A stretch of 64,000 nt of DNA from the NCBI RefSeq assembly GCF_000425365.1, contig NZ_AUDH01000004.1, forward strand, positions 124,001 to 188,000, read 5' to 3'. The translations under genes and the position numbers were made by a program. Origin of the DNA: Rubritepida flocculans DSM 14296. Lineage in GTDB: Bacteria > Pseudomonadota > Alphaproteobacteria > Acetobacterales > Acetobacteraceae. Positions 3,001-35,723 of the stretch are shown here, one piece after another; position 1 is the first letter of the stretch, and every line of letters begins with the position of its first letter. Under the pieces are notes generated by a model. That model worked only from the letters and a program-made list of their open reading frames with translations. It did not search any database and was not told the DNA's origin.

Positions 3001-3193
3001 AGCCGTAGCGCGCGCCGGGGCCGAGCCCGGGCAGGAGCCCCTCGAACAGCCCGTCGCCGCGCGGGGCGAGGGGGGCCCGCAGCACCTCCTCGCCGTGCTC
3101 GAACAGGCAGAACCAGACGCGATCGGCCCCCGGTGCGGGCAGCGCCACCCGCAGCCCCTTGGGCCCGGGCGTGACGCCCGGCAGGCTAGCCAC
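1..3193 (-). CDS. glgX: GlgX-MalQ fusion: glycogen debranching enzyme joined to 4-alpha-glucanotransferase (C-terminus outside window)
   Basis: One reading frame stays open from a GTG at 3193 to the window edge (about 1063 codons, no stop). Residues 1 to about 630 are a GH13 debranching enzyme, which cleaves alpha-1,6 branches of phosphorylase-trimmed glycogen. The GH13 nucleophile motif GFRLDLAT (Asp310), the acid/base motif IAEPWD (Glu348) and the later TAHDGFTLADLV motif are present. From about residue 640 the frame continues into a GH77 amylomaltase: the N-terminal module, then MGDF and the RASPYQPSDRRFLDP substrate-loop motif. The window ends at RANMRHAAALR, just before the position where E. 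coli MalQ has its nucleophilic Asp. The start overlaps the glgA stop by 8 nt, so the two are translationally coupled. No stop or internal start separates the halves, so this looks like a true fusion. The distal MalQ active site cannot be checked here. Confidence 0.88.
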   Translation of the reverse strand, partial: MASLPGVTPGPKGLRVALPAPGADRVWFCLFEHGEEVLRAPLAPRGDGLFEGLLPGLGPGARYGFRADGPVALGRFDPAKLLLDPWARRLEAPLRLHPSLFTPGEDSAPHLPKCVVEAPAPAPGWAPLPARPLILYELHVRGFTMRHPEIPKGIRGTFAGLAHPAAIGHLVALGVTAVELMPCAAWIDERHLPPLGLANHWGYNPVCPLAPDPRLAPGGMAEVRAAVQALRAAGIAVILDVVFNHTGEGDAEGPTLNLRGLGEAHWYRLGHNQSGCGNVLACDRPWPLRLVMDALRHWALEAGVDGFRLDLATTLGRRDPDGRFDPMAPLFAGIRQDPVLATRRIIAEPWDVAEHSLGAFPPGWGEWNDRFRDDIRRFWRGDRGMVGALATRLAGSSDALPGRPGDSINFVTAHDGFTLADLVSHARKHNEANGEENRDGSDANLSWNNGHEGPSDDPAILARRAADARALLASLLIARGAPMLSMGDEIGRTQRGNNNAYCQDNALSWMDWEGADAALLGFAQRLVAARRAHPALHATRPLTGAEVAPGMRDVAWLTLEGAPMQGWEQAESLAMLLHEGEDRVLAAFHQGGGAALLALPPPRWGHHWTLIADSADPEREGAVEGPQGMAPRSVLLLAESPLPPRRAEAPDGALLGALAAAAGIETVWFDLTGAAHRVPEGTVRALLGALGLPAETAAQARDSLARRRERPLLPPHLAATEGVAPRLPSSATRRLSATLHLEGGETRELSLLPEEGMLRLPPLPPGHHRLEAAGALCRITCAPARAFRPSALEAPRFGLTAQIYALRHAAEQGMGDFTAVAELARAAAAEGALWLGLSPPHALHLADRARASPYQPSDRRFLDPMLIDAARLGPCAAPGGAWVDYPAAWAAKRATLAAAWARFDRRDPSFQAFRAAGGAALRGFALHAALSEHLGHGDHRRWPAGLAHVDDRAVPGFAARLAEETEFHIFLQFLADRQLAEAAAAGAGLYRDLAVGSAPDGAEAWTRALPFLEGFSIGAPPDPLGPLGQVWGVPPPDPLASAAEGHAGFAALIRANMRHAAALR

Positions 3194-4625
3194 GCCCCGT
3201 CATCGCGCGGAACAGCGCGGCGTAGCGCGCGGCCGAGCGCGCCCAGGAGACATCGGTGGCCATGGCGTTCGCCACCAGCCGCGCCCAGGCCCCCGGCTCG
3301 CGATACAGGCGGATGGCGCGTTCGATGGCAGCCATCAGCATATCCTGCGTGACGGGAGAGAACTGGAAGCCGGTGCCCGCGCCCATGGCCAGCGCCATCT
3401 CGTTCGCGTCCATCACCGTGTCCGCGAGGCCCCCCACCCGCGCCACGATGGGCGGCGCGCCGTAGCGCAGCGCGCAGAGCTGCCCCAGCCCGCAGGGCTC
3501 GAAGCGCGAGGGCAGCAGGATGCAATCCGCACCGCCATAGACGAGCCGCGCGAAGCCCTCGTCGAAGCCGACGAAGCTGCCCACCCGCCCGGGGTTCGCT
3601 CCGGTGGCGCCATGCACCCGCTCCTCCAGCGCGCCCTCGCCGGTGCCGAGGAAGGCGATCTGCGCGCCGTTGTCGAGCACGGCCGGCAGCGCCTCCAGCG
3701 CGAGGTCCACCCCCTTCTGCCAGGTGAAGCGGCCGATGAAGGCGAAGAGGGGGGCATCAGGCTCGGGGGCGAGCCCCATGCGGGCCTGGAGTTGGCGCTT
3801 GTTCTCCGCGCGCGGCGCGGGATCATCGGCCGAGAAGTTGGCCGGCAGCCGCGGGTCGGTGGCTGGGTTCCACTCCCCGGTGTCGAGCCCGTTGAGGATG
3901 CCCGAGAGGTCGCGCGCGCGGCCGCGCAGCAGCCCATCGAGCCCCATGCCCCAGGCGGGGGTCCGGATTTCCGCGGCATAGCTGGGCGAGACGGTGGTGA
4001 TGCGCGCCGCATACCACAGCCCCGCCTTGAGGAAGCCGACGCGGCCGTAATACTCGAGGCCCTCGGCGCGGAACGCATCGCCCGGCAGGCCCAGCAGGGG
4101 GAACACCTCGGGCGGGAACTGGCCCTGGAAGGCCAGGTTGTGCAGGGTGAACAGGCAGGGCAGCCGCGGGGCCTCGTAGCGCAGATAGGCGGGCAGCAGC
4201 CCGGCCTGCCAGTCATGCGCGTGCGCGGCGTCGAACCCCTCGGACTGCGCGAGGCTCGCCCCCGCGCGCGCCAGTGCGGCGAAGCGCGCGGCGTTGTCCG
4301 GCCAGTCCTCGCCCCAGGGCGCGAGGTAGGGGGAGCCCGCGCGGGCGAAGAAATGCGGCGCGTCGAGCGCCACGAGGCGCAGCCCCGCGGCCTCGGCGTG
4401 CAGCAGCCGCGCCGGCGCGCCCATCAATTCGGGCAGCGCGTCCACCCGGTGCACGGCCCCGAGCGCCTGCAGCACGGCCGGATAGCCGGGCAGCAGCGTG
4501 GTCACCTCCACGCCTTCCGGCGCGAGGGCGGCGGGCAGCGCCCCCACCACATCCGCAAGCCCCCCGGTCTTGACGAAGGGGAAGCACTCGGAGGCGACGG
4601 CCAGTACGCGCAGGGAGGCGCTCAC
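3186..4625 (-). CDS. glgA: Glycogen synthase (ADP-glucose dependent)
   Basis: 479-aa GT5 glycogen synthase, which transfers glucose from ADP-glucose to the non-reducing ends of alpha-1,4-glucan in the cytoplasm. The N-terminal ADP-glucose loop [10 protein letters not shown] is at residues 19-28. The C-terminal GT-B half carries the [18 protein letters not shown] nucleotide-binding segment. Length matches the bacterial family (about 475-485 aa). The ATG overlaps the end of glgC by 4 nt, and its stop overlaps the GTG start of the downstream glgX-malQ gene, so all three are probably made from one mRNA. Nothing unusual is seen in the protein. Confidence 0.96.
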
Positions 4626-11740: not shown

Positions 11741-12697
11741 ATGGCCGCGCCCCTCGATCCCGATTGCCGGCGCCTGCTCGAGATGGCGCAGGCCGCGAAC
11801 ATCCCCGCCTACGAGACGCTGACGCCCGAGGCGGCGCGCGCCCAGTATGCCGGCGGCCGCAGCCGGCTGCAGGCGCCTCAGCCCACCGTGGCGGAGGTGC
11901 GTGAGCTGCGCCTGCCCTCGGGCCGGGCGGCGCGGCTGCTGCGCCCCCTCGGCAGCGCACCGGGCGAGGCGCTGCCGGGCCTCGTCTTCGCGCATGGCGG
12001 CGGCTGGGTCTTCGGCGACCTCGACACGCATGACCACCTGGCGCGCAGCCTGGCCAATGGCGCGGGCTGCGCGGTGCTGGCGGTGGACTACCGCCTGGCC
12101 CCCGAGCACCGCTTTCCCGCCGCGGTGGAGGATGTGGCCGAGGCGGTGCGCTTCGCCGCGGCCGAGGCGCGCGCCCTCGGCCTCGACGCCCGGCGCCTGG
12201 CCGTGGGGGGCGACAGCGCGGGCGGCAACCTTGCCGCCGTGATGGCGCTGATGGCGCGGGAGGGCGCGCTGCCGCCGCTCCGCTTCCAGCTCCTGCTCTA
12301 TCCGGTGGTGGAGATGGCCCAGACCCACGATTCCATGGCGCGCTTCGAGGCCGGGGCGGCGCTGACCACGCCCGCCATGCGCTGGTTCCGCGCCCATTAC
12401 GCGCCCGATCCCGCAAGCTGGAACGACTGGCGCGCCTCGCCCCTGCGCGCGGCGAGCCTCGCCGGCGTCGCGCCCGCCTTCGTGCTGACGGTGGGCCATG
12501 ACCCGCTGGTGGACGAGGGGCGCGACTATGCCGCCCGGCTGGAGCGCGAGGGCGTGGCGGTGACGCATCTGCACGCGGCCGACATGATGCACGGCGTGCT
12601 GACCATGACCGGCTTCATCCCGCGCGCGGCGCTGCTGATCGAGGTGGCGGCGCGCGCGCTGCGCGAGGGGCTGGCCGGGGCCGGGGAGGGGGCGTGA
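11741..12697 (+). CDS. Alpha/beta hydrolase, hormone-sensitive-lipase (HSL) family esterase
   Basis: 318-aa esterase/lipase. The oxyanion-hole motif HGGGWVFGDLDTHD is followed by the YRLAPEHRFPAAVED block typical of bacterial HSL (family IV) esterases. The nucleophile elbow is GGDSAGGNLA. A C-terminal VGHDPLVDEG supplies the Asp, and the HGV of MMHGVLTM supplies the His, so the triad is complete. No signal peptide, so it is cytoplasmic. It is transcribed divergently from the glycogen operon and its stop overlaps the ATG of the SDR gene by one base, so the two are probably co-expressed. The natural ester substrate is unknown. Confidence 0.92.
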   Translation: MAAPLDPDCRRLLEMAQAANIPAYETLTPEAARAQYAGGRSRLQAPQPTVAEVRELRLPSGRAARLLRPLGSAPGEALPGLVFAHGGGWVFGDLDTHDHLARSLANGAGCAVLAVDYRLAPEHRFPAAVEDVAEAVRFAAAEARALGLDARRLAVGGDSAGGNLAAVMALMAREGALPPLRFQLLLYPVVEMAQTHDSMARFEAGAALTTPAMRWFRAHYAPDPASWNDWRASPLRAASLAGVAPAFVLTVGHDPLVDEGRDYAARLEREGVAVTHLHAADMMHGVLTMTGFIPRAALLIEVAARALREGLAGAGEGA

Positions 12698-13485
12698 TGC
12701 GCTTCGAGGGCAGGGTGGCGGTGGTGACGGGCGCGGCCCATGGGCTCGGGCTCGACGCCGCGCGCGGCTTCGCGCGCGAGGGCGCGCGGGTGCTGATGGT
12801 GGACCGCGACCCCGCGGGCCATGAGGCGGCCGCCGCGCTGCGCGCCGAGGGCCATGACGTGCGCTTCCGCGCCGCCGACGTGACGCGCGCGGCCGATGTG
12901 GCGGCCTATGTGGAGGCGGCGCTGGAGGCTTGGGGCGCCATCCACTGCTTCTTCAACAACGCCGGCATCGAGGGCGAGGTGAAGCCCCTCGTCGAGCAGG
13001 AGGAGGCGGTGTTCGACGCTGTGCTGGCGGTGAACGTGAAGGGCGTCTTCCTCGGTCTGCGCCATGTGCTGCCGGTGATGCGCGCGCAGGGGCAGGGGGC
13101 AGTGGTGAACACGGCCTCCACGGCCGGGCTGGTGGGCTCGGCGGGGCTCTCGCCCTATGTCGCCTCCAAGCAAGCGGTGCTGGGGCTGACGAAATCCGTC
13201 GCGGGTGAGGTGGCGCGGGAGGGCGTGCGCGTCAACGCCATCTGCCCCGGCCCCACCGAGACGCGCATGATCCACTCGCTCGAGGAGCAGGCGGCCCGGC
13301 GCGGCGCGAACGACCCGGCCGAGCGCTACCGCGCGGCCATCCCGATGGGGCGCTACTGCCTGCCCTCGGAGATCACGGCGGCGGTGCTGTTCCTGTGCTC
13401 GGAGGCGGCCTCGGGCATCACGGGCGCGCATCTGCAGGTGGACGGCGGCCGGACGGCCTGCCCGATGGGGAGCGCGATGCGATGA
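12697..13485 (+). CDS. Short-chain dehydrogenase/reductase (SDR)
   Basis: 262-aa classical SDR oxidoreductase. The Rossmann dinucleotide motif is TGAAHGLG near the N-terminus and NNAGIEG follows at mid-length. The catalytic triad is in the NTASTAG Ser block and YVASK (Tyr-x-x-x-Lys). The C-terminus has the SGITGAHLQVDGG ending common to FabG-like SDRs. An Asp after the second beta strand (MVDRDPAG) favours NAD(H), an inference. The start chosen is the ATG at 12697 (TGATG overlap with the esterase stop, behind a G-rich Shine-Dalgarno); a GTG one codon earlier is possible. It ends 20 bp before the left boundary repeat of the integrative element. Confidence 0.93.
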   Translation: MRFEGRVAVVTGAAHGLGLDAARGFAREGARVLMVDRDPAGHEAAAALRAEGHDVRFRAADVTRAADVAAYVEAALEAWGAIHCFFNNAGIEGEVKPLVEQEEAVFDAVLAVNVKGVFLGLRHVLPVMRAQGQGAVVNTASTAGLVGSAGLSPYVASKQAVLGLTKSVAGEVAREGVRVNAICPGPTETRMIHSLEEQAARRGANDPAERYRAAIPMGRYCLPSEITAAVLFLCSEAASGITGAHLQVDGGRTACPMGSAMR

Positions 13486-13504
13486 GGCGGTGGTGCTGAA
13501 GGAA

Positions 13505-13550
13505 GTGGCGCGCCCGGGAAGATTCGAACTCCCAACCCTCAGATCCGTAG
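13505..13550. repeat. Left attachment-site repeat (attL core), 46 bp
   Basis: Identical over 46 bp to 20142-20187. It reproduces the tRNA-Arg 3' end from the CCA through the T arm, variable loop and 3' anticodon stem to the anticodon loop, including the anticodon. Beyond position 13550 the sequence diverges from the tRNA, so this copy cannot fold as a tRNA. Confidence 0.92.
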
Positions 13551-13571
13551 AATGCCCGCCGCCTTCGCCAT

Positions 13572-13701
13572 TGCGGACCCCGAGCCGCCAAAAACCGCCA
13601 AAAAGCTTGCTTTCCGAGAGGTGACCCTCTTACTCTCTCGCCAGTGAACGCCGTAAACTGCCATTGCGGACCCGCTTTCGGGGTCCGCACGGGGTCCGCA
13701 A
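13572..13701. promoter_or_regulatory. Left cluster of integrase arm-type sites (GGGGTCCGCA motif)
   Basis: Four copies of the decamer GGGGTCCGCA or its complement lie between attL and the integrase start. Inverted copies are at 13572-13581 and (one mismatch) 13665-13674; direct copies are at 13680-13689 and 13691-13700, 11 bp apart. The 24 bp at 13678-13701 are repeated exactly at 20065-20088 near the other end. The 13665-13689 part is a near-palindrome. The arrangement fits arm-binding sites for a lambda/P4-type integrase. Because the cluster ends 20 bp before the integrase ATG, it could also autoregulate int (inference). Confidence 0.7.
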
Positions 13702-13720
13702 AAGGGGAGTAAGAGGGTCT

Positions 13721-15052
13721 ATGCCGAGCCTGACTGATAGGACCGTTGCGGCCCTGTCAATCCCGGAGGGCAAGCGCGAAGCGTGGCTGTCTGACGCCGT
13801 GGTGAAAGGGCTTCGCCTGCGCGCCACCCCCGGCAGCAAGACATTCTTCGTGTGCTGGACCGACCGCGCGACCGGCGAGCGCCGCCGCGAAAAGCTCGGC
13901 GCGTGGGGCAGCATCACTATCGAGCAAGCCCGCGACGCCGCCCGCATCGTCATGGGCAGGATCGCCGCTGGCGCGGACCCGGCCGCCGAGCGCGCCGCAC
14001 GCGCTGCGGAAGCCGCCCGACGCAAGGCCGAGGCCGCCCGCGCCGCAAGCGAAGCCGCCTTCACGCTCGACGCGCTACTGACCGACTGGCAAGCCCTGCA
14101 TCTGTGCAACCGCCGCCCGCGCTACGCCGCCGAGGCAACCCGCGCGATGCGCGCAGCGTTCAAGGCGCATCTGGCCACGCCCGCGGCGGCGCTGGACCAT
14201 GCCGCCGTCCTTCGCGTTGTGGACGGCTTCACGAAGGCCGGTAAGCCCACCACGGCCGGACTCATCTTGCGCTACGGCTCGGCCTGCTACGGCTGGGCCG
14301 TGAAGCGGCGGCGGCTCGCCCACAATCCCTTCGCGGGGCTGCCCAAGCCCGACCACAAGGCCGAGCGCGACCGCGTTCTGACGGATGCCGAGATCGGCGA
14401 AGTCTGGCGCGCGGCGGGCACGCTGCCCGCGCCCTACGGCCCCGCCGTCAAGCTGCTGCTGCTGACGCTCGCCCGCCGCGACGAAGTGAACGGCATGACC
14501 TGGGGCGAGATCGCGCCCGACCTCTCCGCGTGGACGCAGCCGCCACGCCGCACGAAGAACGGCGAAGCGCACGTGGTGCACCTTGCCGCGCCCGCGCGCG
14601 CGCTGCTGCGCGATCGGCTCGGCATCGCGCCCGACGCGCCATTGCCCGCGCTGCCCCCCTCGGACGCGCTTGTGTTCGGGGTGCTGCACGGCGGCGCGCT
14701 GCGCCCGATCGGCGGGCACAACTGGGTCAAGCGCGAGCTCGACAAAGCGATTGCGAAGGAGCGCGCGACGCGCGGTGCCGAACCAATGCAGCCATGGGTG
14801 CTGCACGACTTCCGCCGGACGGGCGTGACGTGGCTTGCCGGCGCGGGCTTCCCGCCGCACGTCGCGGACAGGCTGCTGAACCACACGCAAGGCGCGATCA
14901 ATGGCGTGGCGCGCATCTACCAGCGCAACCAGTTTCTGCCCGAGCGCGCCGCCGCGCTGGACGCATGGGCAGCGCACGTGCTGGCGATGGGCGAAGGCGC
15001 GCCCATGCCTGCGGTGGTGGTGCCGCTGGAACGCCGGAGGGCGCGCACGTGA
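13721..15052 (+). CDS. Site-specific tyrosine recombinase (P4-type integrase)
   Basis: 443-aa integrase that should catalyse recombination between the element's att site and the tRNA-Arg gene. N-terminal arm-binding domain of the DUF4102 type (LRLRATPGSKTFF, LGAWGSITIEQAR), an Ala/Arg-rich linker, then core-binding and catalytic domains. Active-site residues by position: Arg252 (ARRDEVNGMTW), His362 and Arg365 (LHDFRRTG), His388 (LLNHTQG) and the nucleophile Tyr400 (ARIYQRN), so the pentad looks complete. Start: ATG at 13721 with AGAGGG about 6 nt upstream; a longer in-frame start at 13664 would run through the arm-site repeats and is less likely. The stop overlaps the next gene by 4 nt. Confidence 0.95.
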   Translation: MPSLTDRTVAALSIPEGKREAWLSDAVVKGLRLRATPGSKTFFVCWTDRATGERRREKLGAWGSITIEQARDAARIVMGRIAAGADPAAERAARAAEAARRKAEAARAASEAAFTLDALLTDWQALHLCNRRPRYAAEATRAMRAAFKAHLATPAAALDHAAVLRVVDGFTKAGKPTTAGLILRYGSACYGWAVKRRRLAHNPFAGLPKPDHKAERDRVLTDAEIGEVWRAAGTLPAPYGPAVKLLLLTLARRDEVNGMTWGEIAPDLSAWTQPPRRTKNGEAHVVHLAAPARALLRDRLGIAPDAPLPALPPSDALVFGVLHGGALRPIGGHNWVKRELDKAIAKERATRGAEPMQPWVLHDFRRTGVTWLAGAGFPPHVADRLLNHTQGAINGVARIYQRNQFLPERAAALDAWAAHVLAMGEGAPMPAVVVPLERRRART

Positions 15053-15519
15053 GCCGCCCTTCGTCGCGGCTCCGCTTCGCCGATCTGCGCTCGAACGACC
15101 TGCCCGAACTGCTGCGCGACTTGCAGCGCGCCGAGACGCCGGAGGACTGGCGCGAAGTGCTGGCGCGCGCCGTGGACGAGCTCGCCTACTGCCATTTTGC
15201 GCGCCCGCGTGACTGCGACCCGCCCGAGCGGCACCGCGAATGGACGCTGGCGCGCATCAAGCTGGCCGAGGTGATCCGCGCGGGCTTCGCGCCGCCGCCG
15301 CGCCGGGCGCGGGAGGTGTTCCGCGCCGAGCGCGACGCGCGCGACATAGCGGTGTTCGGCAAGTGCCGCACGCAAGCGGAGGCCGTGGATTTCCTGATGT
15401 TCGCGCGCGGGATCACGAGGGAGGCCGCGCGCAGCCGCGTGCGCCGCGCGATGAAGGCCGGACTCGTGCTTGAGGCCGCGCCCCGCTTTGGGCGAAAGCC
15501 ACCCACTAAAGACCGTTAG
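15049..15519 (+). CDS. Unrecognised element protein, Arg-rich
   Basis: 156-aa protein that I do not recognise. It starts at a GTG whose last two bases are the first two of the integrase TGA stop (GTGA overlap), with GGAGG about 10 nt upstream, so it is probably translated with the integrase. The protein is highly charged. The middle (RREVFRAERDARDIAVFGKC) and the C-terminal part (FARGITREAARSRVRRAMKA) look like amphipathic helices, possibly a helix-turn-helix ending in a basic tail. No signal peptide or membrane segment. A DNA-binding or regulatory role is plausible from position and charge only. Confidence 0.7.
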   Translation: MSRPSSRLRFADLRSNDLPELLRDLQRAETPEDWREVLARAVDELAYCHFARPRDCDPPERHREWTLARIKLAEVIRAGFAPPPRRAREVFRAERDARDIAVFGKCRTQAEAVDFLMFARGITREAARSRVRRAMKAGLVLEAAPRFGRKPPTKDR

Positions 15520-15593
15520 CGCGCGCGCGCAGCGTGTGACTAATGGCTAGCCCCGGCGGCGCACGGCGCGCCGCGCTTTGAAGGGGCACCGTC

Positions 15594-15809
15594 ATGAGGC
15601 TTTTGACCGAACATGAAGCCGCCGAGCTGCTGCGGGTCGCGCCGCGCAGTTTGCAGCGGTGGCGCGCGACAGGGGACGGCCCGCGCTTCGTGCGGCTGGG
15701 GCTGCGCCGGGTGGCCTATGCAGAGGCCGACCTTCTCGCGTGGGCTGCCGCGCGCAGCTTCGCGCATCGCGCGGATGAAGTCGCCCGCAAGCGCGCCGCC
15801 GCAAAGTGA
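15594..15809 (+). CDS. AlpA/Xis-like helix-turn-helix protein (putative excisionase)
   Basis: 71-aa protein with a MerR/AlpA-type winged helix: LLTEHEAAELLRVAPRSLQR forms the helix-turn-helix and RATGDGPRFVRLGLRRVAYA forms the wing. This is the HTH_17 pattern of phage and element excisionases and of AlpA activators of integrase genes. It follows the integrase and the 15049 gene on the same strand after a 74-bp gap that holds GGGGC ahead of the ATG. By analogy it would bind near the att sites or the GGGGTCCGCA repeats and set the direction of recombination. The DNA target is not shown by the sequence. Confidence 0.82.
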   Translation: MRLLTEHEAAELLRVAPRSLQRWRATGDGPRFVRLGLRRVAYAEADLLAWAAARSFAHRADEVARKRAAAK

Positions 15810-15811
15810 AA

Positions 15812-15840
15812 CGCCGTCCGCGAGGCAAGCGCGGACGGCG
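15812..15840. terminator. Perfect 11-bp inverted repeat after the Xis-like gene
   Basis: CGCCGTCCGCG (15812-15822) and its exact complement (15830-15840) flank a 7-nt loop, 2 nt after the Xis-like stop codon. No T-run follows on the plus strand, so it is not a textbook intrinsic terminator. It could stabilise the upstream mRNA 3' end, terminate weakly, or be a protein-binding palindrome. Confidence 0.5.
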
Positions 15841-15927
15841 AGGCACACGAAGGATCAACGGAGCAGATCCATCGTGCCACGACGGGCGCGAAAAATCCAC
15901 CGCGGGCGACGGCTTGGAGCCGCCCCC

Positions 15928-16899
15928 ATGCAGCAGAAAGAGCCTCTACCCGAGCTGGCCCAGCGCCTCGCCGAGCGCGCGCCCGAGCTGGCGCTTGCGC
16001 TGCTCGGCGACCCCAATCAACGCGGCCGCACCGAGTGGCGCTGGGGGCGCCGCGGCTCTCTGGCCTTGGTGATCGCAGGCCCGAAGCGCGGGCGCTGGCA
16101 CGATCATGAGGCCGGCCAGGGCGGCGACATGCTGGCGTTCATCGTGCGGCAGCGCGGCGGCACGCTGGCCGATGCGGCCCGCTGGGCGCGCGCCTGGCTG
16201 GGCGAGGCCGCGACCCGCCCGGAGCCGCAGCCGCGCAAGCCGCCGCCGGCACCGGAGCCGGTGCCGCGCGACACGGCGCGCCTCGCGCTGGAAATCTGGC
16301 ACGGCGCGCGAGAGAGCATCGCGGGCACGCCCGCCGAGAAATACTTGCTCGGGCGCGGCCTGGACCCGGCGCGGCTGCCGCCGCACGCCGGGCTTGCGGG
16401 CTGGCCGCCCGCCCTTCGCTGGCACGCGGGGCGCGAGGGGCTGGTGATCGGCGTCAATGGCGCGGCAGACGGCCTGATCCGCGCCGTGCAAATCGTGCTG
16501 CTGCGCCGGGATGGCGCGCCCGTGCTGCGAGATGGGCGCAAGATGAGGCTGACCCTCGGCTCGCTGCGCGGCAACGCCGTGCGCTTCGCGTGGCAGTGCG
16601 ACCCGCGCGGCCGATGGGCGCTGGCGGAAGGCGTGGAAACCGCGTTCGCCGCCTCGATGCTGCTGCAATGCCCGGTCTGGGCGAGCCTGGGGGCGAGCAA
16701 CCTCCCGTGCGTCAAACCGCCGCCCTGGGCGCGCGAGTGCGCCATCGTCGCAGACCATGATGCGGCCGGCCTTCGCGCCGCCGAGCTGGCAGCCGCGCGC
16801 ATCGCGGAAGGGGGGCTGCCGGTGACCATCATCCGCCCGAGCGCGCCGGGCGCGGATGCGGCGGACCTGGTTGCGGAGGGGGGCCGTCATGTCGCTTGA
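15928..16899 (+). CDS. Toprim-domain primase (phage/plasmid replication type)
   Basis: 323-aa protein resembling the small primase-like Toprim proteins of mobile elements. The N-terminal half holds a CHC2-like region without the zinc cysteines (KRGRWHDHEAGQGGDMLAFI). The middle has GTPAEKYLLGRGLD, typical of the DUF7146 segment preceding Toprim. The C-terminal Toprim core has WALAEGVETAFAAS (acidic Glu) and IVADHDAAG (Asp-x-Asp). Start: ATG at 15928 behind TTGGAG; the frame is open upstream but without support. The stop lies inside the next gene (11-nt overlap), so primase and ATPase are likely coupled. The expected role is making primers for replication of the excised element. Confidence 0.85.
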   Translation: MQQKEPLPELAQRLAERAPELALALLGDPNQRGRTEWRWGRRGSLALVIAGPKRGRWHDHEAGQGGDMLAFIVRQRGGTLADAARWARAWLGEAATRPEPQPRKPPPAPEPVPRDTARLALEIWHGARESIAGTPAEKYLLGRGLDPARLPPHAGLAGWPPALRWHAGREGLVIGVNGAADGLIRAVQIVLLRRDGAPVLRDGRKMRLTLGSLRGNAVRFAWQCDPRGRWALAEGVETAFAASMLLQCPVWASLGASNLPCVKPPPWARECAIVADHDAAGLRAAELAAARIAEGGLPVTIIRPSAPGADAADLVAEGGRHVA

Positions 16900-18037
16900 A
16901 CTGCCCCCGGGGCTTGGGGTGCACGTGCCGGCCGCCACCACGCCTGCCGCCGCTGCCGCTGCTGCGCCGACGGGTGCGGCGCGCCGCCTGCGGTGCTGGT
17001 CGCTCGCCGCCTGCGCCGCCGCGCCGCCGCGCGGATACATCATCAAGGGGCTGATCGCGCCCGCCGACCTCGGCATCCTGTTCGGCGTGCCCGGATCAGG
17101 CAAAAGCGTGCTGGCACCCTTCCTGGCACACGCGGTTGCGACGGGCCGGAGCATCTTCGGGCGCCGGGTGCGCCGCGCGCCGGTGCTCTTTGCGGCAGCC
17201 GAAGATGGCGCGGGAATGCTGCGCCGCGCCGCCGCGCTGCGGCAGGCGCACGGCGACACCCCGGACTTTCACGTGGTCGCCGATCCCATTGACCTGCAAG
17301 GCGACGGGGTGCACGAGCCGCCCGACTTGCTGGCGCTGCTGGACGCGGCCGAGCGGACGCGCGCCGAACTGATTGTGCTGGACACGCTGGCGCGCGCCTT
17401 CCCGGCCCTGGATGAGAACGACGCCCGCGCCATGGGCCGCGCGGTGCGCCTGCTGCGGCGGCTGTGCGAGGGCGGGCGGGCGCTGCTGGTGGTCCACCAC
17501 GGCGCCAAGGCCGGAAGCAGCAACGGCACGGGCGGCGCGACGCCGCGCGGACACGGCATCCTGAACGGCGACGCGGACGTGACGATGCGCGTTGAGGTTC
17601 CGGAGGACCGCGAAGCGCCGCGCACGGTTCATCTCGGGAAGAACCGCAACGGCACCACGCTGGAGCCGCTGGCGTTCACGATCCGCGCCGAGGCGCTCGG
17701 GGTCGATGAGGACGGCGACCCGATTACCGCGCCGGTTGCCGAGGAGGCCGAAGGCGACGCCCCGCGCCGGGCGCGCCTGTCGCCGCGCGAGCGAACGGCA
17801 CTCGCCTTCCTCCATGACGCCATCGCGGACGCCGGCGAGCCCCTGCCCGCCGCGTGGCGGATGCCCGCCGGGCTGCGCGGAGTGCCCCTGACGCGCTGGG
17901 GCGCCGAGTGCGAGCGGCGCGGGCTGACCCTCTCGGACAACCCGAAAAGCCGTCGCGACATCTTCAACCGCGTGGCCGCGACGCTGCGCGACAAGGGGCT
18001 TGTCGCAACCCGCGACGGCTGGGCTTGGCCGACATGA
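16889..18037 (+). CDS. RepA-like hexameric AAA/RecA-fold ATPase (replicative helicase type)
   Basis: 382-aa ATPase of the RepA/AAA_25 family found in plasmid and phage replication modules. Walker A is GVPGSGKS at residues 66-73 and Walker B is within LIVLDTLARAFPALDEND. LLVVHHGAKAG supplies the sensor His block, then SNGTGGATPRGHG resembles the arginine-finger/coupling region. The C-terminal ~100 residues (LSPRERTALAFLHDAI to the end) look like a winged-helix DNA-binding tail. Start: ATG at 16889 after GGAGGGGGG, inside the primase gene. A phased repeat array starts 5 nt after the stop, consistent with a rep-origin pair. It could unwind or load at that origin (inference). Confidence 0.87.
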   Translation: MSLELPPGLGVHVPAATTPAAAAAAAPTGAARRLRCWSLAACAAAPPRGYIIKGLIAPADLGILFGVPGSGKSVLAPFLAHAVATGRSIFGRRVRRAPVLFAAAEDGAGMLRRAAALRQAHGDTPDFHVVADPIDLQGDGVHEPPDLLALLDAAERTRAELIVLDTLARAFPALDENDARAMGRAVRLLRRLCEGGRALLVVHHGAKAGSSNGTGGATPRGHGILNGDADVTMRVEVPEDREAPRTVHLGKNRNGTTLEPLAFTIRAEALGVDEDGDPITAPVAEEAEGDAPRRARLSPRERTALAFLHDAIADAGEPLPAAWRMPAGLRGVPLTRWGAECERRGLTLSDNPKSRRDIFNRVAATLRDKGLVATRDGWAWPT

Positions 18038-18041
18038 CGCC

Positions 18042-18167
18042 GCGACAGCCTGCGACAGCCCGCGACAGGCGCGCGACAAGGCGCGACAACGCAGCGACAA
18101 CCTTCGCAAGGGCACCCCGCGACGCGCGCGACGAGCGACAACCCCCTTTAGGGGTGTCGCTTGTCGC
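18042..18167. repeat. Helically phased GCGACA array plus hairpin: candidate origin/iterons
   Basis: GCGACA occurs six times in direct orientation at 18042, 18052, 18062, 18073, 18083 and 18094, with a period of 10-11 bp, one DNA turn. A further copy at 18135 faces two inverted copies (TGTCGC at 18155 and 18162). Positions 18134-18161 form a hairpin with a 5-nt CTTTA loop and one bulge. An inverted pair (17988-17994 and 18000-18006) also lies within the end of the upstream ATPase gene. The phasing and position right after a RepA-like gene match plasmid iterons, although this motif is shorter than typical 18-22 bp iterons. No protein-coding gene is convincing between 18038 and 18304. Confidence 0.65.
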
Positions 18168-18304
18168 CGCCGAGCCCCGGCCGGAAAAATCCGTCGCAGC
18201 GAGGCCGAGTGCCTGTCGCGGGCTGCCCCCTTCCTTCACGTGCTGCCCGGCCTGCCGCGCCCGGGCGCGCGCCATGCAACCCCGCGCGGCCGGAGTGCCC
18301 CCGC

Positions 18305-18901
18305 ATGTTCTTCACCCGCCCGACCCCCCAGCCCACGCCGCCGCCCGCGCCCGCCGATGATCCGGACGGGCTGCGCGCCGAGCTGGCCGCGCTTGAGGCC
18401 GAAGCGCCCGGGCTGCTGCGCCGCATCAGCGAGAGCAACATGACGATTGGCGCCGAAGCCGACGGCCGCGAGGCCGGCGAGCGCCTGGCCCATGTGCGCC
18501 GCCGCATCACGGAGTTGCGCGACCGCATCCGCGATGCGGAAGCCGTGGGCCGGCTGGCCGAGATCGCGCACATGCGGCGGGAGTGCGCGGACCTGCTGAT
18601 GCGGTGGACGCGCTTCATCGGAGAGGGCTACCCGTGCGCCGCCGAGACCATCGCCGCCGGGCTCGCGGTCGCGCGGCGCGTGGACGAACTGCGCCACGAG
18701 ATCGCCACGCGGCTGCAAGCGTTGCCGCCCGAGCTGCGCGCGCGCGAGCTGCCGGTGCCGCCGCCCGCCGTGCTGCCCGAGCCCGCGCCGGGCGCGCCGA
18801 ACGTGCTTGAGGGGCAGGGCGGCCTCGCCGCGCTTGTGCGGCTGCCGCACCCGACAGGGCAGGCCTGGCTCGATTACTGGCCGCCCGGGGGCGACCGATG
18901 A
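18305..18901 (+). CDS. Coiled-coil protein of unknown function
   Basis: 198-aa protein I do not recognise. A Pro-rich N-terminus (about 20 residues) precedes a long helical, heptad-like region (LRAELAALEAEAPGLLRRIS, then HVRRRITELRDRIRDAEAVG) that should form a coiled coil. A Pro-rich stretch (LPVPPPAVLPEPAPGAPN) follows near the C-terminus. No membrane segment or enzyme motif. Start: ATG at 18305 behind GGAG; its stop overlaps the M41-like gene by 4 nt (ATGA), so the two are likely made together and may act together. A structural or scaffold role is possible but unsupported. Confidence 0.7.
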   Translation: MFFTRPTPQPTPPPAPADDPDGLRAELAALEAEAPGLLRRISESNMTIGAEADGREAGERLAHVRRRITELRDRIRDAEAVGRLAEIAHMRRECADLLMRWTRFIGEGYPCAAETIAAGLAVARRVDELRHEIATRLQALPPELRARELPVPPPAVLPEPAPGAPNVLEGQGGLAALVRLPHPTGQAWLDYWPPGGDR

Positions 18902-19650
18902 GCCCCCGTGAGATGCGCCGCTGGCGGCTGCGCGGGGCGCTGCATGAGACCGGGCACGCGCTGTTCATGGTGCTCGGCTTCGTGCCCGTGCGGCGGCTCA
19001 TCATGGGCGCGCGCAGCGGCCGCGCCGAGCGCGACACGGCGGAGATCGCGCGCCGCCGCGCTGCGCCGCCCCCCGATTGGGGGCAGGCCGCGCCCCCGCC
19101 GGAGCCATGCCAGCAAACAGCACGGCTTGTGGCCTTGGAGCGGCTGGCGATCAGCGCGGCGGGCGCGGAGGCCGAAGCATGGCGGGCGAGACTGCGGCCG
19201 GCGTTTTACGGCCGGCGCGTGGCGGCGATGGGGGCGTCGAACTTTTCCGTAACGGACGCGCGCACCGCCATCGCCGCTTCCGCGCGGCTGCGGGAACTTG
19301 GCGTGGATGCCGAGGCACCCAGGCTACGCGACGCGCTGGACCAGCACTTCCAGCGTGCCTTTGACCGCCACCGCTTCACCATCGCGCGGACGGCGCGCCG
19401 GCTCTACCGCAAGGGGCGCCTCGAGGGCGAGGAGCTTGCCGAGCTGCTGCGGCCGATCGAGCGCGACACCTGCTGGCGGCTTGAGGTGATGGCCGACCTT
19501 GCCCGCGCGCTGGCCGACCCGCTTGCCGCTTGGCCGCCGCATCCGTCGCGGCTGGCGCTGGCCGGGCCGCCCGAGGGGCCGGCCGCGAGCCGGGCCGGGT
19601 CCTTTAGTGGCGACGCATATACGGGCGGCGGAAGCGCAGCAGCAGGCTAG
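18898..19650 (+). CDS. Stand-alone M41 (FtsH peptidase)-like protein
   Basis: 250-aa protein with a zinc-protease motif HETGH (residues 16-20, HExxH) at the start of a segment that follows FtsH peptidase-domain order: HETGHALFMVLGF, PVRRLIMGARSGR, LERLAISAAGAEAEAW (like the alpha-helical GGRAAEE block), then GASN (112-115), where FtsH has GASND with its third zinc ligand. Here the Asp is displaced, with Asp120 the nearest candidate. The C-terminal RLYRKGRLEGEELAELL resembles the M41 tail. There is no AAA ATPase domain and no clear transmembrane helix, so it is not a membrane FtsH. ATP-independent proteolysis, an FtsH decoy or loss of activity are all possible. The gene overlaps the preceding coiled-coil gene by 4 nt. 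Confidence 0.72.
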   Translation: MSPREMRRWRLRGALHETGHALFMVLGFVPVRRLIMGARSGRAERDTAEIARRRAAPPPDWGQAAPPPEPCQQTARLVALERLAISAAGAEAEAWRARLRPAFYGRRVAAMGASNFSVTDARTAIAASARLRELGVDAEAPRLRDALDQHFQRAFDRHRFTIARTARRLYRKGRLEGEELAELLRPIERDTCWRLEVMADLARALADPLAAWPPHPSRLALAGPPEGPAASRAGSFSGDAYTGGGSAAAG

Positions 19651-20064
19651 GTAATATTATTTCTCGAGAGTAGCCGCCCAGAGCAATAAAGTTGCGCGAC
19701 GGCTTGGTGGTGGGGGCGAGGCCCGAAGCTCGCCCGCCGCCGAGCTGCCGCCCGCGCCACCCCCTTCGCGCTGCCGGGCTTTCGGGAAGGCCGCCCAAGC
19801 CGCGCAGGGAAGCCCGCAGAGGCCGCCCAAGCCGCGCCGCGTGCACCCCTACCGGCCGCCCCTTCGCCGCCTTGTGCGGGCTTCCTGGACCGCCTGCGGG
19901 CGGCTGACGCGCCGCCCCGCGCCTGGGGCATCTGCCGAGCGGGGGGGGGCACCCTTCGCGCTGCCATCCCGCGCTGCCGCGCCGCCGCGCTGCCGACCCC
20001 CCTCCCGGCTGGGGCATCGGGCGGGGCGAGGCGCACCACCCCCCCGGAGAGGGGTTCCTTGCGC
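19651..20064. other. Non-coding right end of the element
   Basis: I see no credible gene here. An AT-rich patch (19651-19690, unlike its surroundings) follows the M41-like gene. The rest is GC-rich and internally repetitive: a 17-bp unit beginning GGCCGCCC at 19789-19805 recurs at 19821-19837, CCCTTCGCGCTGCC occurs at 19762 and 19952, and there is a run of nine G at 19941. Short open frames on both strands lack starts with Shine-Dalgarno sites and have low-complexity products. Confidence 0.6.
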
Positions 20065-20103
20065 TCGGGGTCCGCACGGGGTCCGCAACGCTCGGGGTCC
20101 GCA
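20065..20103. promoter_or_regulatory. Right cluster of integrase arm-type sites
   Basis: Three direct copies of GGGGTCCGCA at 20067-20076, 20078-20087 and 20094-20103 lie 38 bp inside the right core repeat. The first two sit in a 24-bp block identical to 13678-13701 at the left end, with the same 11-bp spacing. Paired repeats inside both ends fit P and P' arm sites for the integrase. Confidence 0.7.
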
Positions 20104-20141
20104 AGGCTGGCCGGAAAGTGGTCGGCTAACTCATTGAAAAC

Positions 20142-20187
20142 GTGGCGCGCCCGGGAAGATTCGAACTCCCAACCCTCAGATCCGTAG
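20142..20187. repeat. Right attachment-site repeat (attR core), 46 bp
   Basis: Identical to 13505-13550. This copy is continuous with the 5' half of tRNA-Arg, so integration at this end leaves a complete tRNA gene, as is normal for tRNA-targeting elements. Confidence 0.92.
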
Positions 20188-20218
20188 TCTGATGCTCTAT
20201 CCATTGAGCTACGGGCGC
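20143..20218 (-). tRNA. tRNA-Arg (anticodon ACG), CCA encoded
   Basis: 76-nt cloverleaf on the minus strand. The acceptor stem is GCGCCCG/CGGGCGC, the D stem GCTC/GAGC and the anticodon stem TCAGA/TCTGA around the loop CTACGGA (anticodon ACG). The T stem is GGGAG/CTTCC around TTCGAAT, with discriminator G and genomic CCA. The ACG anticodon is normally edited to ICG by TadA and reads CGU/CGC/CGA. Its 3' half is the element's integration target, so an intact 3' half is restored at this junction. Confidence 0.96.
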
Positions 20219-20291
20219 TGGCCGTGGGCGGGGGATTACCGCCCCGTGTCAGGATGCGCAACCCCCGGGGCCGCGCAAAAACGGCGGGGCG

Positions 20292-21410
20292 CTATGCGAG
20301 CTTTTCCAGCTCGCGCACCACCGCCTCGCCCATCACGGCGGTGCCCACGCGGGCCATGCCGGGCTGCATGATGTCGGCCGTGCGCAGGCCGCCGGCCACC
20401 ACCTTCTCCACCGCCGTCTCGATCATCCGCGCATCCTCCTCCATGCCGAAGGACCAGCGCAGCAGCATGGCGAAGGAGAGGATCTGCGCGGAGGGGTTGG
20501 CAATGCCCTTGCCCGCGATGTCGGGCGCGGAGCCGTGGATGGGCTCGTAGAGCGCATGGCGCCGCCCGTCCGGCTGCACCGCGCCGAGCGTGGCCGAGGG
20601 CAGCATGCCGAGCGAGCCCGTCAGCGCCGCCGCGAGGTCCGAGAGCAGGTCGCCGAACAGGTTGGAGGCGAGGATCACGTCGAACTGCTTCGGCCGCGAG
20701 CAGAGCTGCATGGCCGCGTTGTCGGCGTACATGTGCTCGAGCTGCACGTCGGGGAACTCGGCCTTGTGCACCTCGCTCACGACCGCGCGCCACAGCCGGC
20801 CGGACTGCATGACGTTGGCCTTCTCGGTGCTCGTCACCTTGTTGCGCCGCTTGCGTGCGAGGTCGAAGGCGATGCGCGCCACGCGCGCGATCTCCTCCTC
20901 GGTGTATACCTCGGTGTCGATGCCCGTGCGCCTGCCCGCCGCGTCGGTGGTGATGCCGCGCGGCTCGCCGAAATAGATGCCGCCCGTGCTCTCGCGCACG
21001 ATCATGATGTCGAGGCCGCGCACCACCTCGGGCTTGAGCGAGGAGGCGTCCACCAGAGGGTCGAGCACCACGGCGGGGCGGAGGTTCGCGAAGAGGCCGA
21101 GTTCCTTGCGCAGGCGCAGGATGCCGAGCTCGGGCCGGCGCTCGAAGGGCAGGGAATCCCACTTCGGCCCGCCGACGGAGCCGAACAGCACCGCATCGGC
21201 CGCGCGCGCGGCGGCCACGGTCGAATCGGGGCAGGGCACGCCCTCGGCGTCGAGGGCCGCGCCGCCCACCAGGCCCTCGCTGATCTCGAAGCGCGCGTGG
21301 CGGCGCTGCTCCATCCATTCGATGATTCGGCGCACCTCGCGCATCACCTCGGGGCCGATCCCGTCGCCGGGGAGGATGAGAAGCTTCTTGTTCGCGGGCA
21401 TGGCTGTCAC
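20292..21410 (-). CDS. leuB: 3-isopropylmalate dehydrogenase
   Basis: 372-aa enzyme converting 3-isopropylmalate to the 2-keto acid precursor of leucine with NAD+. Family blocks: [10 protein letters not shown] near the N-terminus, [21 protein letters not shown], then [10 protein letters not shown] (catalytic Lys region). Downstream are YADNAAMQL (metal-binding Asp block) and [20 protein letters not shown]. Length matches the family (360-370 aa). The last gene of a leuC-leuD-leuB run, separated from leuD by 108 bp that contain two copies of a 35-bp repeat; co-transcription with leuCD is likely. Confidence 0.97.
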
Positions 21411-34740: not shown

Positions 34741-34932
34741 TTTCCAAGGCTTGGCGCTAACGTTTCGTTCACGAATTGTTGCAACACTCCCGGCGAGGGC
34801 CAAAATCGCCTTTTCCGACAAGGGAGATCGGAAAAACTGTTGTGCAGCGCAGCAAATACGTCTTGAATCCTGACCTGCGCGCCGCATAGTGCGGATCAAA
34901 GCGGGAATCGCGGCACGGCCCATCCACCTGAT

Positions 34933-34957
34933 CCGCTTCCCCACGCCGGGGAAGCGG
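34933..34957. promoter_or_regulatory. Hairpin 25 bp upstream of the DUF1194 gene
   Basis: CCGCTTCCCC (34933-34942) and GGGGAAGCGG (34948-34957) form a perfect 10-bp stem with a 5-nt loop. This lies within the 242-bp gap that separates the GST operon from the DUF1194 gene. It could be a terminator for the GST operon or a structure in the DUF1194 5' leader. A separate 10-bp palindrome, TGTTGCAACA, is at 34777-34786 in an AT-rich stretch, and could be an operator. Confidence 0.5.
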
Positions 34958-34982
34958 ACCGATCTGGAGACTGAGGGATCCG

Positions 34983-35723
34983 ATGCACCGTCGCCGCCTC
35001 CTCGCCGCCGCCCTCGCCGCCCCCGCCTTTCTTCGCGCCGCCCCTGCTCGCGCCCTCGAACCTGTGGACGTGGAGCTGGTGCTCGCGGTCGATGTCTCGC
35101 GTTCGGTGGACGCCGAGGAGATGGAGATGCAGTTCAAGGGCTATGCCGCCGCCTTTCGCGACCAGCGCATGATCGAGGCATTGACCCGCGGCCCGCTGGG
35201 GCAGATCGCCGTGACCCTCTTCACTTGGTCCGACTGGAACATCCAGGAGCATCTGATTCCCTGGATGAAGCTCGACGGCGCCGAGGCCTGCGAGCGCTTC
35301 GCCCGCGCGGTGGACGCCGCCCCGCGCCGGACGCACCTCTACACCTCCATCTCCGGGGCCATCGACTTCGCCGCTCGCCTGTTCGGCCAAGGCTATGAGG
35401 GCACGCGGCGGGTGGTGGACATCTCAGGCGATGGCATCAACAACTCCGGCCGCGACGTGGAACTCGCCCGGCGAGACGCGCTGGAACAGGGCATCGTGCT
35501 CAACGGCCTTGCGGTTCTCGACCGCACGCCACCGCCACCGGGGCTCGGTCTGCAGCAGCCCTTGGACGAGTATTTCCGCGAGCGTGTGATCGGCGGGCCG
35601 GGCGCTTTCCTCATGGTCGCGGAGGGCTATGAGGCCTTCGAGCAGGCAGTGCGCTGCAAGATCATTCGGGAAATCGCCCTCGCCCCTGTGCCCGGGCCTG
35701 AGGTGGAGCGGGCCTTCGCCTGA
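34983..35723 (+). CDS. DUF1194 family secreted protein with von Willebrand A-like fold
   Basis: 246-aa secreted protein. The N-terminus has a twin-arginine-like start (MHRRRLLAAALAAPAFLRAA) and cleavage near ARA-LEP. The mature domain begins with VELVLAVDVSRSVDAEE, where DVSRS is the DxSxS metal-binding motif of VWA domains. TSISGAIDFAARLF and VVDISGDGINNSGRDVE follow. DUF1194 proteins are widespread in alphaproteobacteria without an assigned role. It probably binds a divalent metal and a partner protein in the periplasm. Monocistronic by layout. Confidence 0.88.
   Translation: MHRRRLLAAALAAPAFLRAAPARALEPVDVELVLAVDVSRSVDAEEMEMQFKGYAAAFRDQRMIEALTRGPLGQIAVTLFTWSDWNIQEHLIPWMKLDGAEACERFARAVDAAPRRTHLYTSISGAIDFAARLFGQGYEGTRRVVDISGDGINNSGRDVELARRDALEQGIVLNGLAVLDRTPPPPGLGLQQPLDEYFRERVIGGPGAFLMVAEGYEAFEQAVRCKIIREIALAPVPGPEVERAFA

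Follow-up and report, generated by a model that had tools for sequence, protein, structure and literature searches.

A putative iteron-type replication origin behind a RepA-like helicase gene in an integrated element of Rubritepida flocculans, and the RepA domain predicted to read it

What is the role of a series of short DNA repeats that lies immediately behind a RepA-like ATPase gene in the alphaproteobacterium Rubritepida flocculans DSM 14296? The repeats are found in a stretch of 64,000 nucleotides (nt), termed here the window (RefSeq assembly GCF_000425365.1, contig NZ_AUDH01000004.1, positions 124,001 to 188,000) and numbered from its first letter. An earlier note, made from the sequence alone, had suggested an iteron-type origin. 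This suggestion is supported by recurrence of the repeats in relatives and by covariation with RepA, and origin activity is what we infer from these. Positions 18042-18167 very probably represent the replication origin of an integrative, satellite-like element of ~6.6 kb, where the C-terminal winged helix of RepA would bind the GCGACA units. The features of the region are:

18042..18099, plus strand: six direct GCGACA iterons, 10-11 bp apart (sequence, shuffle test)
18128..18167, no strand: palindrome whose arms carry motif copies in inverted orientation (18135 plus, 18155 minus, 18162 minus; sequence, folding)
18143..18154, no strand: recurrent palindrome centre, window version CCCCTTTAGGGG (centre pattern in relatives)
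18214..18219, minus strand: distal inverted GCGACA (sequence)

Direct copies on the plus strand start at 18042, 18052, 18062, 18073, 18083 and 18094, and a seventh at 18135. The first of these is 4 nt past the RepA stop codon, and spacings within the six-copy array are 10, 10, 11, 10 and 11 bp (mean 10.4). Inverted copies are at 18155-18160 and 18162-18167. All of these positions had been given correctly in the earlier note; the additional inverted copy at 18214 was not in its list.

Can the array be explained by chance, by GC-rich composition or by codon usage in overlapping frames? The local GC content of ~75% speaks for such a cause, but the distribution of the copies does not. There is no overall enrichment of GCGACA in the window (53 copies found, 56.2 expected), but 10 copies fall within the 267 nt of 18038-18304, whereas the rest of the element (6325 nt) has 12 and the DNA outside it (57318 nt) has 31. 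The best hexamer of 18038-18304 forms five neighbouring pairs 8-12 bp apart, and the maximum in 20,000 dinucleotide shuffles was two. When the window was cut into 717 overlapping tiles of 267 nt, more than two phased pairs occurred in two, both covering this array. A conserved coding frame through 18038-18304 had been named as a finding that would speak against an origin. The six array copies are in frames 0, 1, 2, 1, 2 and 1; all three frames are visited, and codon usage is thus ruled out as the cause. Translated comparison (tblastx) of the region with relatives gave, among the 20 matches listed, short ones in mixed frames and strands, with no consistent frame. With the shuffles, the frames and the recurrence of the array in relatives with other hexamers (see below), a chance or codon-usage origin is refuted, and the probability left to it is negligible. 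Elsewhere in the window, tiles with one hexamer in two phased pairs occur at 3027-3738 and 34800-35244.

Does the array recur behind other RepA genes? Of 299 genomes of the host family, 78 have a RepA match (own genome included, with one such RepA at E 0.001; many matches are weak or partial), as do 15 plasmid records and 261 phage records. In viral contigs the lists comprised the best 80 of 527 matches, 77, 14 and the best 80 of 245, with contigs recurring between lists. The array region cannot be aligned because the hexamer changes, so architecture was compared instead; a distant blastn search of the region against phages gave no match. From 127 loci with a RepA match, 36 were left out (RepA identity of at least 85% to another, no stop codon in the available DNA, or less than 200 nt downstream; L008 and L117 were removed as duplicates). 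This left 91 non-redundant loci, the window's own included, 47 of them viral and the rest from genomes, and at each the 300 nt past the RepA stop codon were scored. One hexamer forms two or more phased pairs at 54 of the 91 loci, compared with eight of 1227 control tiles from the same loci and 11 of 9100 shuffles; in these recurrence counts the downstream regions of at least L041 and L077, where matches run past the stop codon, start too late. Seven CGGGAC copies of L065 lie 316-386 nt past the stop, outside the scored region, and are missed by the count.

Regardless of spacing, the commonest hexamer has at least five copies in 65 of the 91 loci. These 65 loci yield 283 same-strand neighbour distances of 6-40 bp, of which 70 are 9 bp, 56 are 10 bp, 23 are 11 bp and 22 are 8 bp. 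Distances of 9-11 bp thus constitute 149 of the 283 with no selection for spacing. Spacing by one helical turn, as had been proposed, fits the 10-11 bp of the window; in the family the peak is at 9-10 bp rather than at exactly one turn.

Twelve named records, taken from the best plasmid and phage matches, were also scanned, and the array is present in eight. These are Rhizobium phages 16-3 and RHph_X2_25, Roseobacter phages CRP-811, CRP-823 and CRP-831, and plasmid records from Xanthobacter, Pseudorhodobacter and Methylobacterium. In the Xanthobacter plasmid (L309) the RepA-array module is found behind an integrase and a helix-turn-helix (HTH) gene, as in the window, and in Methylobacterium currus plasmid unnamed4 (L311) behind a toprim gene.

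The layout is thus shared, and the letters of the repeat differ. The window has GCGACA as top hexamer; L002, its closest relative, has GTTCCC and L009 has GCAAGC, and CGGACA, GGGACA, GTGACA, TGGTAC, CTACAA and others are found elsewhere. Among 142 RepA proteins selected for having an array there are 59 different top hexamers, some of which are the same repeat read in another register. In related marine phages the positions of copies past the stop codon are nearly kept, with the hexamer TGGTAC in one and GTTACG in another. At L068, for example, copies are located 71, 81, 91, 103, 153, 161 and 178 nt past the stop.

The hairpin that had been noted is present in the sequence: the arms, 18128-18144 and 18151-18167, are 88% complementary, and a DNA fold of 18118-18177 gives -22.6 kcal/mol (z -5.3), with none of 200 shuffles equally good. 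With its inverted copies it also recurs in relatives. A palindrome centre like CCCYTWWAGGG, a pattern picked after the sequences had been viewed, is found at 49 of the 91 loci (window included) and in 42 of the 1227 control tiles. This pattern replaced an automatic best-palindrome search, which often settled on a different inverted pair of motifs, also in the window. Might the hairpin be a terminator or part of a structured RNA, with the repeats incidental? Its strength would fit this. A pattern search found no terminator-like site at the hairpin, however, two Rfam matches are both far below the gathering score, and relatives also have the direct repeats that lie beyond the hairpin. Such a role is therefore given very little probability.

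Do the repeats change together with RepA? For this, 186 of 299 loci passed filters for a hexamer with at least five copies, a match reaching near the C-terminus and length limits, so that loci with no array were excluded; 142 unique proteins remained after removal of identical ones. In pairs with ATPase identity of at least 0.95, C-terminal identity is 0.905 where the repeat is the same (109 pairs, ATPase identity 0.981) and 0.722 where it differs (36 pairs, ATPase identity 0.990). There are 18 clusters, and all five that hold both same-repeat and different-repeat pairs show the same sign. For the 187 pairs with ATPase identity of at least 0.9, the partial rank correlation of the repeat is 0.69 with the C-terminus and -0.11 with the ATPase domain. 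In 500 within-cluster permutations, which lessen the effect of relatedness but do not remove it, the C-terminal column excess of 0.233 exceeds the permutation maximum of 0.146, and the ATPase column excess of 0.047 is inside the permutation range (maximum 0.056).

Individual pairs illustrate this. L059 and L061 have ATPase identity of 1.00, C-termini 0.84 alike and the repeats TGGTACG and TGTTACG, respectively; L052 and L059 have a common repeat and C-termini 0.99 alike. In phages CRP-811 (L302) and CRP-831 (L304), alignment columns 480-719 are 98-100% identical and the last 105 columns 71%, with 0.892 identity over everything ahead of those 105; the repeats, CTACAA in CRP-811 and GTATAA in CRP-831, are at nearly equal positions. 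Judged from their sequences, related phages appear to alter the repeat jointly with the part of RepA that reads it, in lock-and-key fashion.

What is this reading part? The relevant features of RepA are:

16889..18037, plus strand: RepA-like RecA-fold helicase/ATPase, proposed initiator (AAA_25 9.5e-33, profile, AlphaFold2)
17783..18034, plus strand: winged helix predicted at the RepA C-terminus, residues 299-382 (AlphaFold2, covariation)
17942-17992, plus strand: predicted recognition helix, residues 352-368 (AlphaFold2)
17957-17959, plus strand: Asp357 codon (sequence)

AlphaFold2 models have a mean predicted local distance difference test (pLDDT) score of 88.8 for the window RepA with 28 relatives and of 91.2 for the C-terminal domain alone with 51 relatives. 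The modelled C-terminus consists of helices 299-315, 334-343 and 352-368 and strands 330-333, 372-375 and 378-381, which constitute a winged helix. The columns most strongly associated with the repeat are 352, 353, 354, 357, 358, 360 and 361 in the third helix (residues 352-368) and 373, 374 and 376 in the wing; a strong association is also seen at 294, 297, 303 and 331. When a profile of the window protein and 28 relatives was compared with solved structures, RSF1010 RepA (1g8y, E 1.1e-17) was the best of 17 matches; by fold comparison it has rank 17, behind KaiC and RadA chains.

Can single residues be matched to single bases? The six common repeats of the form NNGAC are carried by 53 elements, most of them with G as second base and Lys or Arg at residue 357: this combination holds in 42 of 42 cases. 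Residue 357 is Asp in four of four GCGAC elements (window included), Gln or Asn in five of six GTGAC elements and Lys in the one GAGAC element. Over all 57 NNGAC elements, residue 357 is first of 338 residues in mutual information with the second base (0.78 bits, the next having 0.52). With C-terminal identity below 0.5, 32 of 35 NNGAC elements obey the rule, and none of 100,000 label shuffles reaches 32 (best 29). The four named elements of NNGAC type that were aligned afterwards and are not among these 57 (16-3, X2_25, Pseudorhodobacter and Xanthobacter) all fit.

Residue 356 shows a related pattern in 21 marine-group proteins, which were chosen by helix pattern and repeat and include several near duplicates as well as two loci with mixed repeats (L051, L053): Arg goes with GTACC or GTAAC (eight of eight), and Ser or Asn with ATACC (13 of 13). 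Asp is found with C in CRP-811 and CRP-823, and Arg with G in CRP-831; for NNGAC repeats beginning with C the residue is mixed. A GCGACA copy at 17955-17960 within repA covers the codons of Arg356 and Asp357, the repeat-tracking residues, which is probably a coincidence. Taken further, there is a somewhat better than even prospect that these loci represent a widespread, undescribed replicon class of alphaproteobacterial phages and satellites. In it, a RecA-type RepA with a fused winged helix would recognize short iterons set close together directly after the repA gene, and fast diversification would have left a readable code, residue 356 to base 1 and residue 357 to base 2, that is clearest in NNGAC repeats.

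What kind of element carries the array? A 46-bp direct repeat, 100% identical, is present at 13505-13550 and 20142-20187, and the end of a tRNA-Arg gene (20143-20218, minus strand) coincides with it. Of seven loci compared within the genus, one (G592, L314) represents an empty site, where matches to 12655-13550 and 20142-20800 join at a single repeat copy. Since the flanks join in this way, 13505-20187 is, on sequence comparison, an integrated element of ~6.6 kb in tRNA-Arg. In the other six loci (L315-L320) the right flank matches, and on the left side only the repeat does. The remaining features of the element are:

13505..13550, no strand: left attachment repeat of 46 bp, which copies part of the 3' end of tRNA-Arg (identical to 20142-20187)
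13664..15052, plus strand: tyrosine integrase (Arm-DNA-bind_3 3.6e-14, Phage_integrase 7.6e-11, PHROG integrase 1.8e-49)
15049..15519, plus strand: open reading frame (ORF) with a GTG start codon, sharing 4 nt with the integrase end (GTGA, 15049-15052; sequence)
15594..15809, plus strand: AlpA-like HTH_17 protein, probable excisionase/regulator (HTH_17 1.2e-9; PHROG excisionase/regulator 5.6e-9)
15928..16899, plus strand: Toprim primase (Toprim_3 5e-13, DUF7146 2e-10, PHROG DNA primase 1.1e-25)
18305..18901, plus strand: gene after the putative origin region, no significant family (sequence)
18898..19650, plus strand: last gene of the element, no family above cutoff (sequence)
20142..20187, no strand: right attachment repeat, 46 bp, within tRNA-Arg (identical to 13505-13550)

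The match of the 15594 product to Phage_AlpA is below the cutoff of that family. In the libraries searched, genes 15049, 18305 and 18898 had no family above cutoff, and no plasmid relative of gene 18898 was found. Near the N-terminus of the 18898-19650 product is an HETGH stretch that resembles a motif of zinc metallopeptidases. A 24-nt perfect direct repeat is found inside both ends of the element (13678-13701 and 20065-20088), and two degenerate 27-nt tandem copies are at 20051-20104; these are possible arm-binding sites of the integrase.

Which protein reads the repeats? Three candidates had been named, the 16889 ATPase and the 15049 and 15594 proteins, and covariation favours the first, through its C-terminal winged helix. 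Could one of the other two be the initiator, with RepA merely the helicase? Both are encoded nearby, and RSF1010 uses a separate initiator, RepC. Repeat identity, however, follows the RepA C-terminus at constant ATPase domain, residue 357 in particular, and no gene annotated as AlpA or HTH occurs in the 6 kb around the RepA genes of 16-3 and CRP-811, both of which have arrays (annotation only). A separate initiator is thus quite improbable.

A protein reading the repeats would be equally compatible with an operator and with an origin. Through the repeats, RepA or the AlpA-like protein might regulate repA or downstream genes, with no origin function, and the location of the array between repA and 18305 could serve the two downstream genes. 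On the other hand, no sigma-70-like promoter was found by a search of 17900-18450 (weak evidence in this host), and the annotated downstream genes vary among the named array-bearing records. An origin made of short iterons that follow a helicase gene is reported for Staphylococcus aureus pathogenicity islands (SaPIs) and phage-inducible chromosomal islands (PICIs), and a putative one for the staphylococcal cassette chromosome mec (SCCmec) (PMC7581432, PMC6092414). An operator array is thus considered unlikely, and replication from 18042-18167 remains the preferred reading.

Several findings weigh against that reading or the code attached to it. Origin function is something we infer from computed sequence comparisons. 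Between the two repeat sets of the window there is no AT-rich stretch (9 A/T of 35 in 18100-18134); some marine phage relatives have an AT-rich look there, judged by eye. Relatives lacking the array or its spacing had been named as evidence against an origin, and the outcome is divided: the 54 loci above keep the spacing while the bases change, and the other 37 of the 91 have fewer than two exact phased pairs. Among these 37, L003 and L032 have differently spaced or degenerate repeats, and in L010 and L017 none are apparent. Of the named records, Pantoea phage AAM37, ctyzp037 and Caulobacter phage GB2A have no array in the phased-pair scan, and plasmid pPNAP03 has the palindrome centre only. 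By a looser criterion (two phased pairs or a hexamer with six copies), the array is present in 81 of 108 loci with a detectable C-terminal domain and in 29 of 48 without; one weak case has none. Domain and array thus do not track cleanly, possibly because of diverged domains. A Foldseek search of the winged-helix domain alone against the PDB gave no significant match (best E 0.016).

The covariation is likewise limited in range. The partial correlations are weak when all 10,011 pairs are taken (C-terminus 0.20, ATPase -0.05), and with ATPase identity of 0.5 or more (2604 pairs) the C-terminus has 0.20 and the ATPase 0.24; in these sequences the contrast between C-terminus and ATPase domain is confined to close relatives. 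The residue-357 rule is broken by Lys with T in L080, by Lys with A in L035 and in three TAGAC elements, and by Ser in one CCGAC element. None of the four named elements with other than NNGAC repeats fits: CRP-811, CRP-823 and CRP-831 have Ser with T, and M. currus has Ala with C. The rule was derived from the same data as most of the counts, and because it was read from them, the ranking of residue 357 and the later named cases weigh more than the counts.

How might such an origin function? The winged helix of RepA would bind the GCGACA units of its own origin, and spacing by about one turn would let several RepA subunits sit side by side. ATPase rings might then assemble at the array and open the DNA, a RecA-type helicase being self-loaded with no separate initiator. 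The palindrome with its inverted copies could orient a second set of subunits, or act as a strand-opening or priming site, and the Toprim primase would begin synthesis.

Do known systems resemble this one? Iteron letters vary between SaPI and PICI islands. RSF1010 (IncQ) RepA, the best solved-structure relative by profile, is of the RecA-fold type, as is the window RepA; it matches over the ATPase part, whereas the window RepA carries a fused predicted winged helix. RSF1010 iterons are longer, and no RepC-like gene was recognized among the seven genes of the element, three of which are without a family. Short iterons and a helicase are also features of phage P4. SaPI origins consist of several short iterons that begin directly after the helicase gene and are recognized by the helicase C-terminal domain (PMC7581432); the PICI origin is immediately 3' of the initiator gene, with a primase encoded alongside (PMC6092414). 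The window likewise has short iterons immediately 3' of a putative initiator gene, recurring in relatives, and its element has the int, xis, pri, rep order and its own attachment site (compare PMC6092414). Differences are the helicase, which is of the AAA_25 type and RSF1010 RepA-like rather than a SaPI Rep with DUF927 or Primase_Cterm (types given in PMC7581432), the Toprim primase in place of their archaeo-eukaryotic primase (AEP) type, the absence from the window of an AT-rich region between two iteron sets, and a recurrent palindrome centre.

Other comparisons are to single features. The pRN1 ORF904 protein is a helicase that ends in a winged helix, and a stem-loop located past its gene is required; P4 alpha is an initiator-helicase with a Toprim primase; primase and helicase are fused in both and separate in the window element, and pRN1 has a superfamily 3 (SF3) helicase and no iterons (PMC4234260). 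The prototype of the phage-inducible chromosomal minimalist islands (PICMIs) has six genes: an integrase, a small gene that overlaps its end by 4 nt, alpA, a primase and two of unassigned function (PMC10803314). The window order, integrase, overlapping ORF (GTGA), alpA-like gene and primase, is alike. PICMIs integrate at fis rather than at tRNA-Arg and have a DUF3987/DUF5906 primase, unlike the Toprim_3/DUF7146 primase and separate RepA found here. They are elements of Vibrionaceae, a family other than that of the window host, and no helper phage is known for the window element.

In the phage-inducible chromosomal island-like element (PLE) of Vibrio cholerae, the initiator DNA-binding domain and the origin vary together, and a phage nuclease that mimics the initiator may select for that variation (PMC8263062). 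The reading domain and array of window RepA relatives vary jointly as well. PLE RepA differs in that it is of the RepA_N family, has semi-palindromic iterons of ~30 bp and is without predicted helicase or primase activity (PMC8263062, PMC7145576). By analogy, one can conjecture a PLE-like selective pressure on the RepA/array pair.

Has this type of origin been described? No description was found among the papers listed by searches of the open-licence literature, judged by titles and abstract openings. The portion available of a paper on CRP-822-type roseophages contains neither 'iteron', 'repeat' nor 'origin of replication', and treats the helicase mainly as a marker and core gene (PMC12629253); 'iteron' does not occur in the corresponding portion of a survey of alphaproteobacterial phages (PMC10783043). 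The window module appears to be a variant of the self-recruiting helicase/iteron origin.

What would such an origin signify? With a RecA-type helicase, one protein would suffice both to recognize the origin and to load the helicase, in contrast to the RSF1010 relative, which needs a separate initiator. Probable origins would be marked in many uncultured phages and satellites. CRP-811 and CRP-831 are cultured and have different repeats at equal positions, and the co-change of initiator and origin is thus directly testable with natural pairs. If the code holds, the origin specificity of phages and satellites would be predictable from sequence, and incompatibility or cross-use between satellite and phage might be predictable from a few residues. 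The diversification of repeats and reading domains may reflect competition over origins, as reported for PLE.
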